From positions 1 to 64,000 of the forward strand of contig NZ_JMTZ01000040.1 in NCBI RefSeq assembly GCF_000731095.1: a DNA stretch of 64,000 bases, in the 5' to 3' direction. The DNA comes from Lysobacter antibioticus. GTDB taxonomy: Bacteria > Pseudomonadota > Gammaproteobacteria > Xanthomonadales > Xanthomonadaceae. The position numbers and the translations under genes were made by a program. The number at the start of each line of letters is the position of its first letter. The first letter of the stretch is position 1. The notes under the pieces are model-generated. The model was not told the DNA's origin, ran no database searches, and saw nothing but the letters and a program-made list of their open reading frames with translations. Shown here piece by piece: positions 743 to 4,865 of the stretch.

Positions 743-2071
743 ATGACGTTTGAATCGCTTGGGCTTGCGCCCGCGTTGCTGCGCGCGCTTTCCGAACAGA
801 ACTACACCACCCCGACGCCGATCCAGAGCGAAGCGATCCCGCTCGCGCTGGCCGGCCACGACCTGCTCGGCGGCGCTCAAACCGGTACCGGCAAGACGGC
901 GGCCTTCGGCCTGCCGCTGCTGCACCGCCTCGCCACCACCCAGGGCAACACCCAGCGCAAGCCGCGCGTGCTGATCCTCGCGCCGACGCGCGAATTGGCG
1001 CTGCAGGTCAGCGACAGCCTGCGCGGTTACGCCAAGTATCTGCGCCTCAACATCCACGCCATCTTCGGCGGCGCCGGCATGGGCCCGCAGCTCGATGCGC
1101 TGCGCCGCGGCGTCGACGTGCTCGTCGCCACCCCGGGCCGCCTGATCGACCACCTCGAGCGCGGCAGCGCCAAGCTCGACGGCGTCGAGATGCTGATCAT
1201 GGACGAAGCCGACCGCATGCTCGACATGGGCTTCCTGCCGGCGATCAAGCGCATCCTCGGCCGCCTGCCGCAGTCGCGCCAGACGCTGTTGTTCTCGGCC
1301 ACGTTCGAAACCCAGATCAAGCAGCTTGCGCTGGAGTTCATGCGTAATCCGCAGCAGGTGCAGATCGCCGCCAACAGCCTGGTCGCCGAAGCCATCACCC
1401 ATCGCGTGCATCCGGTCGACGGCGGCCGCAAGCGCGATCTGCTGATCGACATCCTGGCCAAGCGTCCGAACGATCAGGTGATCGTGTTCGGCCGCACCAA
1501 GCACGGTTGCAACCGCCTGGCCGAGCAGTTGGAAGAAGCCGGCCTCAAGTCGGTCGCGATCCACGGCAACAAGAGCCAGGCCCAGCGCCAGAAAGCCCTG
1601 CGCGACTTCAAGGCGAACAAGGCCCGCGTGCTGGTCGCCACCGACGTCGCCGCGCGCGGTCTCGACATCCCGAGCCTGCCGCTGGTGATCAACTTCGATC
1701 TGCCGATGGTCGCCGAAGACTACGTGCACCGCATCGGCCGCACCGGCCGCAACGGCGCCACGGGCGAAGCGCTGTCGTTGGTTTCGCCGGACGAAGGCGG
1801 CCTGCTGCGCCAGATCCAGCGCATCCTCAAGGACGACATCGAGATGGTGACGGTGCCCGGCTACGAGCCGTCGCGTCCGATCCGCATGGGTTCGGATGCA
1901 CCGGGCGCGCGCAGCCCGGGCGGCAACAACCGCGGCAACAACGGACCGCGCAAGCCGGCGCATCGTCCGCACGGCAAGCCGGCCCCGCGTCACGCGCATG
2001 CCGGTCCGAAGCAGCATCGCGGCGGCGCAGGCGCGCAGCCGGGCCAGCGTCGCGACCGCAACGCCGGTTGA
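743..2071 (+). CDS. rhlE: DEAD-box ATP-dependent RNA helicase, RhlE type
   Basis: This 442-residue protein unwinds or remodels RNA using ATP and probably acts in ribosome assembly, mRNA decay or cold adaptation, as RhlE-type helicases do. The full set of superfamily-2 motifs is visible: Q motif (about 21-29), Walker A AQTGTGKT (45-52), PTRELALQ, TPGR, the DEAD box (154-157), SAT (185-187), ATDVAARGLDI and HRIGRTGR near 333. After the second RecA domain comes a basic, Gly/Arg/His/Pro-rich tail of about 70 residues, typical of RhlE and presumably RNA-binding. The start ATG at 743 follows a GGAG at 732-735 and leaves the Q motif intact. The gene stands alone, with a strong terminator just downstream. 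RhlE is favoured over DbpA or SrmB because of the basic tail and the Q-motif context, but paralogues cannot be excluded. Confidence 0.93.
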   Translation: MTFESLGLAPALLRALSEQNYTTPTPIQSEAIPLALAGHDLLGGAQTGTGKTAAFGLPLLHRLATTQGNTQRKPRVLILAPTRELALQVSDSLRGYAKYLRLNIHAIFGGAGMGPQLDALRRGVDVLVATPGRLIDHLERGSAKLDGVEMLIMDEADRMLDMGFLPAIKRILGRLPQSRQTLLFSATFETQIKQLALEFMRNPQQVQIAANSLVAEAITHRVHPVDGGRKRDLLIDILAKRPNDQVIVFGRTKHGCNRLAEQLEEAGLKSVAIHGNKSQAQRQKALRDFKANKARVLVATDVAARGLDIPSLPLVINFDLPMVAEDYVHRIGRTGRNGATGEALSLVSPDEGGLLRQIQRILKDDIEMVTVPGYEPSRPIRMGSDAPGARSPGGNNRGNNGPRKPAHRPHGKPAPRHAHAGPKQHRGGAGAQPGQRRDRNAG

Positions 2072-2106
2072 TCGATCCGCTTAGCGGGTTCGTCATCGAT
2101 GAATCG

Positions 2107-2133
2107 AAAGGGCCGGCATTGCCGGCCCTTTTC
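2107..2133 (+). terminator. Rho-independent terminator of rhlE
   Basis: Perfect stem GGGCCGGC / GCCGGCCC with an ATT loop, flanked by A and T runs (AAA before, TTTTC after), 36 bases after the helicase stop. The A/T flanks make it potentially bidirectional. Confidence 0.85.
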
Positions 2134-2589
2134 GTTATGGGCGATGGCGAAGCCTCGCCGCAGTGCGTCGGCACCGATACGCACGCCGTCGATCCGCGAC
2201 GCGCATCACGTTGTCCGGCTGATTTGCGCGTGCATACGCGCGATGAGTTTCGTCGTTCAGCCTCGCCGCGACGAAGCGTGTGCGCAGTCGCGGTTTGAGC
2301 GGTATGCGCGTTAGCGAGCGTAGTAGCAGCCCGCCGGTGGTTCGCGTTCGATGCGAGCGAAGCGGGCGTGCGATCGCGGTGGTCCGCCGGCCGTCTGGTT
2401 CGGCCGGGTCCAAGCAGCGGACACTTCGCCGGACATCGCGTCGAACATTCCGCACGGCAACGGCCGCCTGAGTGCGCCGCGATTGCATACGCGAACGCTT
2501 CGACGCCATCGCACTCGAAGATCGGCTCGGGATTCGTCGATGCGATTCGACATCGCTTGAAAATCGCGGCGCTCTCGCCGCCTTATGAC
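2134..2589. other. Non-coding gap between rhlE and the avidin gene
   Basis: About 450 bases with no supported gene. Several frames are open on both strands because of the GC content, but none shows a ribosome binding site with a recognisable protein. The promoter of the avidin gene is expected here; I could not assign one with confidence. Confidence 0.5.
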
Positions 2590-2595
2590 AGGAGG
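2590..2595 (+). promoter_or_regulatory. Strong Shine-Dalgarno AGGAGG of the avidin gene
   Basis: AGGAGG lies four bases before the ATG at 2600. It overlaps the in-frame ATG at 2585 downstream, so it selects 2600 rather than 2585 as the start. Confidence 0.8.
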
Positions 2596-2599
2596 CAAC

Positions 2600-3070
2600 A
2601 TGGAACGTGCAGGAGCAGTTCTCGTTCTTCTCGGCTTGTTCGCGGTCAGCGGCAGCGTGTCGGCGAAGAAACCGCAGAAGGAAGCAGCCGACGCGGCGGC
2701 AGCGGTGCGTTGCGGCAACCCGGTGGGTTCGTGGCGCAACCAGATGGGTTCGGAGATGAGGATCACCTCGTTCAACCCGAGCACCGGCGCGATCCAGGGC
2801 CAGTACCGCACCAACGGCGGCGCGCCCGGTTTCTATCCGCTGGTCGGTTGGGTCAATTCGGCGCCGCCGGCGCCGGGCGCGAACAATGCGGTCACCATCG
2901 CCTTCAGCGTGCGCTGGGGCCAGATCGGCAGCATCACCGCGTGGACCGGCACGTGCACCGATTCGGCCGCGGGTGCCGGCTTGCGCACGCTGTGGCATCT
3001 GTCGCGGCCGAACTCGCAGTTCGACTGGGACCATATCCTCGCAGGCGCCGACACCTTTACTTCGATGTAG
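2600..3070 (+). CDS. Secreted avidin/streptavidin-family biotin-binding protein
   Basis: A 156-residue precursor with a signal peptide (about 1-22, ending SVSA) followed by a single avidin beta-barrel. The family binds biotin almost irreversibly and is usually secreted. Positions equivalent to the streptavidin biotin contacts are kept: N47 and S51 in the first strand, Y69, W106, S111 and T113, W115, W132, W143 (the Trp lent to the neighbouring subunit), L147 and D151, within recognisable stretches such as GSWRNQMGS and LAGADTF. C38 just before the first strand and C119 after the third Trp sit where chicken avidin has its C4-C83 disulfide; streptavidin lacks it. The start at 2600 is set by a strong AGGAGG. 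The gene is monocistronic, with no biotin-synthesis gene nearby. The role is unknown; in other organisms avidins are thought to starve competitors of biotin. The family call is from pattern recognition, but the match is extensive. Confidence 0.92.
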   Translation: MERAGAVLVLLGLFAVSGSVSAKKPQKEAADAAAAVRCGNPVGSWRNQMGSEMRITSFNPSTGAIQGQYRTNGGAPGFYPLVGWVNSAPPAPGANNAVTIAFSVRWGQIGSITAWTGTCTDSAAGAGLRTLWHLSRPNSQFDWDHILAGADTFTSM

Positions 3071-3107
3071 TGGCGGCTCGCCGAAGTCGGTGGGTGTGGA
3101 AGGCAGG

Positions 3108-3142
3108 AGCAAATTCCCCAGCCCCCTCCCAAAGAGGGGGCG
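3108..3142. repeat. C-rich palindromic repeat, single copy
   Basis: Begins AGCAAATTCCCCAGCC and continues into a hairpin with arms CCCCCTC and GAGGGGG. It shares its head and C-block/G-block hairpin with the elements at 14741 and 25004. It lies between the convergent avidin and GGDEF genes, and the hairpin may also help end transcription from either side. Confidence 0.7.
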
Positions 3143-3206
3143 TGAGGATTGTCGTGTGTTGTCATCGCGATGACGACAGGCGTCGTCGGCTCGGATCCGG
3201 CGTCGC

Positions 3207-4865
3207 TCAGACTTCGCCGAACCGGGTCGCTTCGCGGCGGTCGCGGCCGTTTTCCTTGGCGCGGTACAACGCCGAATCGGCGCCGTCGAACAAGGTGCGC
3301 ACGTGGGTGTGGACGCCCGGCACACAGGTGTACAGGCCGATGCTGAGGCTGACGCGCTGGTCGGCATGGCCTTCGCCGTAACGCGCGTCGAGCTTGCGCA
3401 TGTCTTCCAGGATGCCATCGGCGACGCGGGCGGCGCCTTCGACGTGGGTGTCGGGCAGGATCACCGCGAACTCGTCGCCGCCGAAACGCGCGGCCAGGTC
3501 GCGCGGGCGGCGCGCGTGCGAAGCGATCAGCTCGGCGATCTGGCGCAGCAGTTTGTCGCCGGCGCGGTGGCCTTCGGAGTCGTTGTAAGCCTTGAAGAAG
3601 TCGACGTCGATCAGCGCCAGCGACAGCGGCGCGCGGGTGCGCCGGGCGCTGGCCAGTTCGCTTAGCAGCACATGATCGAAGCGGCGGCGGTTGCCGAGAC
3701 GGGTCAGGGTGTCGAGATTGGCCTCGCGGCGCCAGTGGCGCAGGTGGGCGATCATCCACAGCAGATAGGCCAGCGCGATCATCGCGATGGTGGTCGCCGG
3801 CGCGAACCAGACATTGCCCAGGCGCAGCAGGGCGACGCTGCCGAACGCGGTCAGCAAGGCGGCCGCGCCGGTCACCAGCAGCGGGCGCTGGAAGCGCGGG
3901 TGCAGCATCAACAGCACCACCGCGAACAGCATGACCGCGGCGAGCAACGCTTGCCAGAGCGGCCGCATCGGCACGATGGTGCGATCGTGCAGCAGCATCT
4001 CGATGACGTTGGCCTGGTACTCGGCGCCGTCCATGCGCACCACGTCGGACATCGGCGTGAGATAGCTCGGGGCGAGGCCGCTGGCGGTTACGCCGACCAC
4101 GACCCAGCGGCCGCGCAACAGTTCGGCCGGCACTTCGCCGTCGAGCACGTCCGAGTACGAGACCTGGCCGAAGGTGCCCGGCGGCCCGGCGAAGCGGATG
4201 CGCACGCGGTGATCGCGGGTCTGCTGATACGGCGAGCCCTGCTCGGACGCGGGACGGCGCAGCCCGGGCAGGGGATGCGGCACGACGTTCGGTTCCAACC
4301 CGATCAGGGCCAGGCCGAGCGCCGACCAGCGCGATTCGCCCAGGCCGGCCTGCAGATACATCTCGCGCGTGGTGCCTTCGGAATCGAGCTCGATGTCGGT
4401 GTGGCCGAGCGTGGTCGCCGCGGTCGCGATCAACGGGGTTGGCAGCACTTCCACCAGCGGCCCGTTCTGGCGCAGCGACGCGGTGGTCACCGGCAGGGCA
4501 ACGCGGCCGACGCGGCGCATCGAGGCGGCCAGCGCGGCATCGTGGCCGTCGCCGGTGCGGTCGGGTTCGGCCAGCACCAGGTCGAGGGCGACGCCGCGCA
4601 CGCCGGCGTAGCCGAGGCGGTCGAGCATCTGCGCGTGGATGTCCCGCGGCCACGGCCACTGCCCGAGTTCGTTGAGGCTGCGATCGTCGATGGCGACGAT
4701 GACGACGTCGTCGTCGGGCGCATAGCCCCAGTTCGACAGGTGCAGGTCGTAGAACACGTCGTCCAGGCGCGAGGCCGCGCCGGTGACGGTCAACAGCGCG
4801 GCCAGGCCGGCGGCGAGCAGGGCCGCGCCGCCTCGTAACAACCTGGACCGGGCCGTTGGGGTCAT
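3207..4865 (-). CDS. CHASE2-domain diguanylate cyclase (GGDEF)
   Basis: A 552-residue inner-membrane sensor predicted to make cyclic di-GMP from GTP. Order of parts: an N-terminal membrane helix (about 11-30), a periplasmic CHASE2 domain (about 35-290), three closely spaced membrane helices (about 303-322, 329-349, 357-375), then a cytoplasmic GGDEF domain. The active-site motif is an intact GGDEF (462-466). An RPRD (453-456) five residues before it matches the RxxD inhibitory site, so product feedback is likely. No EAL or HD-GYP domain is present. The ATG overlaps the stop of the upstream LysM-FecR gene (ATGA at 4862-4865), so the two are almost certainly cotranscribed and translationally coupled. 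This suggests the FecR partner supplies or transmits the periplasmic signal. The CHASE2 ligand is not known. Confidence 0.93.
   Translation of the reverse strand: MTPTARSRLLRGGAALLAAGLAALLTVTGAASRLDDVFYDLHLSNWGYAPDDDVVIVAIDDRSLNELGQWPWPRDIHAQMLDRLGYAGVRGVALDLVLAEPDRTGDGHDAALAASMRRVGRVALPVTTASLRQNGPLVEVLPTPLIATAATTLGHTDIELDSEGTTREMYLQAGLGESRWSALGLALIGLEPNVVPHPLPGLRRPASEQGSPYQQTRDHRVRIRFAGPPGTFGQVSYSDVLDGEVPAELLRGRWVVVGVTASGLAPSYLTPMSDVVRMDGAEYQANVIEMLLHDRTIVPMRPLWQALLAAVMLFAVVLLMLHPRFQRPLLVTGAAALLTAFGSVALLRLGNVWFAPATTIAMIALAYLLWMIAHLRHWRREANLDTLTRLGNRRRFDHVLLSELASARRTRAPLSLALIDVDFFKAYNDSEGHRAGDKLLRQIAELIASHARRPRDLAARFGGDEFAVILPDTHVEGAARVADGILEDMRKLDARYGEGHADQRVSLSIGLYTCVPGVHTHVRTLFDGADSALYRAKENGRDRREATRFGEV

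Follow-up and report, generated by a model that had tools for sequence, protein, structure and literature searches.

The 64,000-nucleotide stretch of DNA from the soil bacterium Lysobacter antibioticus analyzed here (hereafter the window; contig NZ_JMTZ01000040.1, positions 1 to 64,000) contains a short gene that a first-pass annotation, made from the letters alone, had read as encoding a secreted avidin homologue. The locus therefore raises two linked questions: whether the gene product is a true member of the avidin family, with the residues expected of a biotin binder, and what use a bacterium would have for an exported protein of this kind.

An avidin-family gene with aligned biotin contacts

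The open reading frame occupies 2600..3070 on the forward strand, running from an ATG at 2600 to a stop codon at 3068-3070, and comprises 156 codons plus the stop. A Shine-Dalgarno-like AGGAGG, read directly in the sequence, lies just upstream of this ATG (2590..2595, forward strand), and an alternative in-frame ATG at 2585 would lengthen the protein by five residues. Scans of 2060-3220, of a type that suits this GC-rich group poorly, detected neither a promoter-like nor a terminator-like site. Residues 1-22 (2600..2665, forward strand), MERAGAVLVLLGLFAVSGSVSA, constitute a putative signal peptide ending in V-S-A with a possible cut after A22, as read by eye from the translation and with no predictor. 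Searches against profiles and structures placed the product in the avidin family. The Pfam Avidin model (PF01382) matches residues 41-154 over profile positions 2-116 of 116, with a score of 101.4 bits that is far over the cut-off of 24 (E 5.1e-29), and among PDB chains compared with phmmer bradavidin is the best single-sequence match (7.5e-12), with a streptavidin chain at 3.1e-11. The only NCBIfam model to match is that of streptavidin (NF047623), and its score of 51.2 bits falls below the cut-off of 300, so that the Lysobacter protein is a relative of streptavidin and not streptavidin itself. By its sequence, the gene at 2600-3070 encodes a genuine avidin-family member, and the profile search that the first-pass annotation had called for thus confirms the homology it had proposed.

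The residues highlighted in that annotation (C38, N47, S51, Y69, W106, S111, T113, W115, C119, W132, W143 and D151) are all present at those positions of the protein, which has further tryptophans at W45 and W84. Alignment to chicken avidin and streptavidin places N47, S51, Y69, T71, S111, T113 and D151 at biotin hydrogen-bonding positions, and these residues would hydrogen-bond biotin in the Lysobacter protein as well; W106, W115, W132 and W143 align with avidin W70, F79, W97 and W110, respectively. The streptavidin counterparts are N23, S27, Y43, S88, T90 and D128 and, for the tryptophans, W79, W92, W108 and W120. Some of the contact roles of the aligned avidin and streptavidin positions are described in passages of PMC5398887 and PMC3344845. 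As far as alignment can indicate, the key biotin contacts would therefore be complete, as had been claimed. A HMMER alignment that set F102, in place of W106, at streptavidin W79 was rejected: with the avidin row, the F-[ST]-V-x-W motif aligns ungapped. The use of W115 as a mark of bacterial avidins was also discarded. Its position is Phe in chicken avidin and, according to passages of PMC5398887, in the characterised eukaryotic avidins, but the xenavidin row has Trp there, against the statement in that source.

The conservation of these positions was assessed in a census of 18 aligned bacterial sequences, 12 of them from the near clade, which comprises Lysobacter, two related genera and Burkholderia glumae (window included), and 6 of them distant bacterial avidins. 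The 12 clade rows omit the near-identical L010, L011 and L017 and the broken or shortened L014, L015, L016 and L018. N47, S51, W45, W132 and D151 are present in 18/18 sequences. One alternative reading is that the gene encodes an avidin-like barrel that does not bind biotin and serves instead as a structural or binding module, as in fibropellins. Passages of PMC8033661 note that some avidin-fold proteins do not bind biotin and that two substitutions are enough in chicken avidin; the equivalents of Trp70 and Trp110, W106 and W143, are nevertheless retained as Trp by each of the 12 aligned clade members (the window protein among them), and we regard a non-binding barrel as the least probable of the readings weighed here, with only a very slight chance of being correct.

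A conserved cysteine pair, and the predicted fold and subunit arrangement

Streptavidin resembles the Lysobacter avidin in being bacterial and exported (export of the latter being predicted from the putative signal peptide) and in its aligned contacts, at 30% identity. Unlike the Lysobacter avidin, it has no cysteine in the aligned sequence, and it is longer by four residues in the segment linking strands 5 and 6. C38 (codon at 2711..2713, forward strand) and C119 (2954..2956, forward strand) are the sole cysteines of the 156-residue protein, and chicken avidin and xenavidin have a cysteine pair at nearly the same places. The first-pass annotation had put both cysteines exactly at the positions of avidin C4 and C83, and this holds in part: C119 aligns with C83, the length from W106 to C119 being the same as that from W70 to C83 in chicken avidin, but C38 lies one residue ahead of C4, with the spacing C-x4-G-x-W as against C-x3-G-x-W. 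Judged by alignment, the pair would thus belong with the vertebrate-type C4-C83 cysteine places, exactly for C119 and with an offset of one residue for C38. Xenavidin is the best match to the clade profile that is no tandem construct, and both of its cysteines align with those of the clade, with a one-residue gap.

Within the census, C38 and C119 are both invariant in the 12 aligned clade members and both are absent from the 6 distant bacterial avidins, of which three (L073, L075 and L078) have a cysteine pair elsewhere and three have no cysteine. In a 24-row tree, the 16 bacterial rows carrying the pair group together; support for this group is modest (83/85), and several of its branches are long. 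Chicken avidin, which also has a pair, falls outside that group and beside streptavidin (85/84). The avidins of Xanthomonas and B. glumae, annotated as "avidin/streptavidin family protein", belong to this clade and have the same two mature cysteines; the identity of these avidins to the window protein is 41-44%, a figure that covers both related genera, and their contacts match those of the Lysobacter protein except for Ser in place of T71 and, in B. glumae, Thr in place of S111. Since the pair is conserved in the clade and stands at vertebrate-like places, it speaks for a vertebrate-type disulfide in the clade, and the Lysobacter avidin probably contains one internal disulfide, C38-C119, to go by the alignment. 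Such a bond would link the beginning of strand 1 with the end of strand 6, the connection made by C4-C83 in egg-white avidin. Bradavidin, rhizavidin and other disulfide-bearing bacterial avidins share family and contacts with the Lysobacter avidin, but the bacterial avidin disulfides described in passages of PMC5398887 join loops L3,4 and L5,6 and do not connect strand 1 with strand 6. That a bacterial clade has cysteines of the vertebrate type is a modest structural point, and one not found stated in those parts of the literature that were covered.

Structure prediction gave a picture in line with the sequence comparisons. An AlphaFold2 model of the mature part, built from three sequences (with L020 and L090 as the related loci behind the structure alignments), has eight strands at a mean pLDDT of 61, which is low to middling confidence, and its residues 111-120, corresponding to window protein residues 147-156 and including D151, have pLDDT values below 50. 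A full-length model from two sequences was dropped (pLDDT 48). The best Foldseek matches of the model with pLDDT 61 are avidins, with E-values of 5.6e-4 and up, TM about 0.5 and rmsd 6-7. VIA-align returned a streptavidin mutant (Z 9.9, rmsd 2.8, 98 aligned residues) and wild-type streptavidin (Z 9.7); the tool itself cautions that models lacking any clear match typically reach a best Z of 7 to 8. The model hence agrees with the sequence evidence for an avidin fold, and would be weak taken alone.

With respect to the oligomeric state, passages of PMC5398887 report Trp at the position of avidin W110 in tetrameric avidins only, and in the alignment this position is taken by W143. The pattern of dimeric rhizavidin-type proteins, described in part in passages of the same source, combines the lack of a Trp at the W110 position with a disulfide between L3,4 and L5,6; the Lysobacter protein has W143 at the former, and its cysteines are not in these loops. 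In the predicted arrangement W106, W115 and W132 would line the pocket and W143 would enter the pocket of the neighbouring subunit, which points to a tetramer, and the Lysobacter avidin is thus probably tetrameric, as judged from these aligned residues.

Genomic place, distribution and proposed role

The avidin gene is single-copy in the source genome and lies between a DEAD-box RNA helicase gene on its left (743..2071, forward strand; Pfam DEAD and Helicase_C) and a CHASE2-GGDEF diguanylate cyclase gene on its right (3207..4865, reverse strand; Pfam CHASE2 and GGDEF), both of them outside the avidin function. The same two genes flank it in all five carriers of the genus. The remark that no biotin gene lies nearby holds for the six neighbours scanned. 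Comparison across Lysobacter genomes, which the first-pass annotation had recommended, gave a patchy distribution: the gene is present in 5 of 20 genomes, source genome included, and is accordingly not a general trait of the genus; missing from the remaining 15, it is dispensable. The avidin of Lysobacter antibioticus HS124 is 69% identical to the window protein. At broader levels, the gene was detected in 16 of 395 genomes of the family (belonging to 3 of its 54 genera), in 1 of 369 genomes sampled across the class (the source genome) and in 16 of 398 across the phylum, source genome included.

Five avidin-less genomes (G002, G003, G004, G010 and G015) have the helicase adjoining the CHASE2 gene, and no avidin remnant was detected in the gap by tblastn at E up to 10, the gap of G010 containing a short stretch of N. 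For the remaining 10 avidin-less genomes the helicase lies beyond the fetched flank (1.5 kb or less), and these are uninformative on an empty site. In a tree of CHASE2 from 19 of the 20 genomes, which omits G011 because its match is only 36%, the avidin carriers form one group (98/94). The simplest history is a single gain in the ancestor of the carrier group, with loss elsewhere possible. Among the five copies, dN/dS ranges from 0.156 to 0.496 in nine of ten pairs, the tenth having no nonsynonymous change, which indicates purifying selection and hence that the gene is kept by selection.

Taken together, we infer that the gene quite probably encodes a secreted, likely tetrameric and disulfide-braced biotin binder that would withhold biotin from other organisms. 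The corresponding interpretation in the first-pass annotation is upheld as regards family membership, aligned contacts, a clade-wide cysteine pair absent from the 6 distant avidins, and purifying selection; export, binding, the disulfide, the tetramer and the role are predictions. After removal of the signal peptide, each subunit would fold into the eight-stranded avidin barrel, and the producer, presumably able to make its own biotin, would export the avidin to bind the surrounding biotin, so that competing microbes or grazers may be starved of it. The link to predation that had been suggested draws on general knowledge of Lysobacter. Competition and protection from grazers are the roles put forward in a survey of bacterial avidins (passages of PMC8033661), and streptavidin, the model case, is described in passages of PMC13336041 as depleting biotin and strengthening the stravidins, and also as binding and neutralising acidomycin.

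The state of biotin metabolism in the host speaks to whether such a protein would withhold biotin or supply it. The biotin synthase gene bioB was found in all 20 genomes of the genus, in the source genome on another contig (C79), and the importer BioY in none of them, by a search that was positive in 9 of 14 control genomes; these were the two biotin genes searched. Release of an avidin by a bacterium that presumably makes its own biotin would fit withholding over supply. The same data bear on another reading, in which the protein sits in the periplasm or at the cell surface and captures biotin to store it on the producer's behalf. The putative signal peptide suits the periplasm as well as secretion, the lack of a BioY match leaves room for another uptake route, and at L. 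antibioticus L020 ABC-transporter-like frames, recognised by eye, are located a few kb upstream on the far side of the helicase; set against this are the presence of bioB in all 20 genomes, the lack of an importer gene among the six scanned window neighbours, and the nearly irreversible nature of avidin-type binding, which suits withholding better than supply. We consider capture and storage improbable.

A further reading accepts that the protein is a true biotin binder but assigns it, as its main job, the binding of a biotin-like antimetabolite for self-protection or delivery. This role has been proposed for streptavidin and acidomycin, which streptavidin neutralises, and in Streptomyces the streptavidin genes flank a biotin-antimetabolite region (passages of PMC13336041); the clade relative in B. 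glumae, moreover, immediately follows genes for type I polyketide synthases and precedes an MFS transporter gene. No such region and no biosynthetic cluster occur among the six scanned neighbours of the Lysobacter gene, which has the helicase and the diguanylate cyclase beside it in every carrier, and for Lysobacter an antimetabolite partner appears, on balance, slightly more doubtful still than capture and storage. Withholding of biotin would hence be the most likely role.

Should biotin be bound as predicted, the gene would provide a family widely used as a laboratory tool with a further bacterial member, probably tetrameric and braced by a disulfide. On the same condition, it would also offer a clean test of the purpose of bacterial avidins, as a single-copy gene at one place with close relatives with and without it. 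Avidins are known from many bacteria, and the Lysobacter gene is a sound but largely ordinary addition. Avidins of Xanthomonas and Burkholderia, and plasmid-borne avidin genes, have already been surveyed in PMC8033661, according to the passages covered, and its main text makes no mention of Lysobacter, disulfide or cysteine. Literature searches found no publication on a Lysobacter biotin-binding avidin and, in a text search, none on the Xanthomonas "avidin family protein"; for biotin in the Lysobacter secretome the results (Xylella signals) held nothing relevant, judged by title.

Relatives on mobile DNA

The Xanthomonas and B. glumae avidins are plasmid-borne in many strains, whereas the Lysobacter gene is found at one fixed chromosomal place. 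Plasmid records matching the avidin number 85 (47 from Xanthomonas, 37 from Burkholderia and 1 from Bradyrhizobium), of which 54 are typed as conjugative, and the 60 matches listed include a Xanthomonas vesicatoria plasmid with a split avidin match. Of four plasmid proteins included in the tree, three (from B. glumae, X. phaseoli and X. campestris) fall inside the cysteine clade and the one from Bradyrhizobium falls outside it. A search of 50,697 phage records (E up to 1e-5) matched no avidin. Among viral contigs, one contig was found in two of five scans, one of which was queried with its own protein, and none in the other three. This contig (IMGVR_UViG_2844200831_000003) carries a cysteine-clade avidin (L090:4953-5405) between repressor-like and BstA-like (KilA-N) genes, and with integrase, endolysin and spanin-like genes near the avidin it looks like a provirus. 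No publication on a prophage-borne avidin was found, judged by titles, which were those of vesicle or vaccine reviews.

In B. glumae BGR1 the avidin on plasmid bglu_2p (L089:19911-20372), like that at L021:7911-8372, is directly behind type I polyketide synthase genes. The B. glumae stretch has three polyketide synthase genes, and the avidin is followed by genes for an MFS transporter, a VOC protein and a methylmalonyl-CoA mutase. Going by gene order, this region may be a Gram-negative counterpart of the streptavidin antibiotic region; no publication on the link was found, judged by titles. A broader conjecture, which we hold to be unlikely if less so than the alternatives above, is that one avidin lineage with an egg-white-type disulfide circulates in Xanthomonadaceae and Burkholderia as mobile cargo on conjugative plasmids, a provirus and a plasmid polyketide cluster because biotin starvation would serve as a portable weapon, alone or with a co-encoded antibiotic, and that the gene was acquired once and chromosomally fixed in Lysobacter.

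Copies in variable states were also observed in genus g17 of the same family. One of its genomes, G239, has three nearly identical avidin copies (L010, L017 and L019), and transposase- and resolvase-like genes were recognised by eye around one of them (L029). Broken or shortened avidin genes occur in G392, G187 and G353 (L014, L015 and L016/L018), and these copies suggest repeated loss after spread. Finally, three loci (L076, L077 and L080, in G978, G900 and G1082) have frames of 723, 255 and 659 residues, respectively, with an avidin-like stretch, and a second similar stretch discerned by eye in each may represent tandem avidin-like domains.
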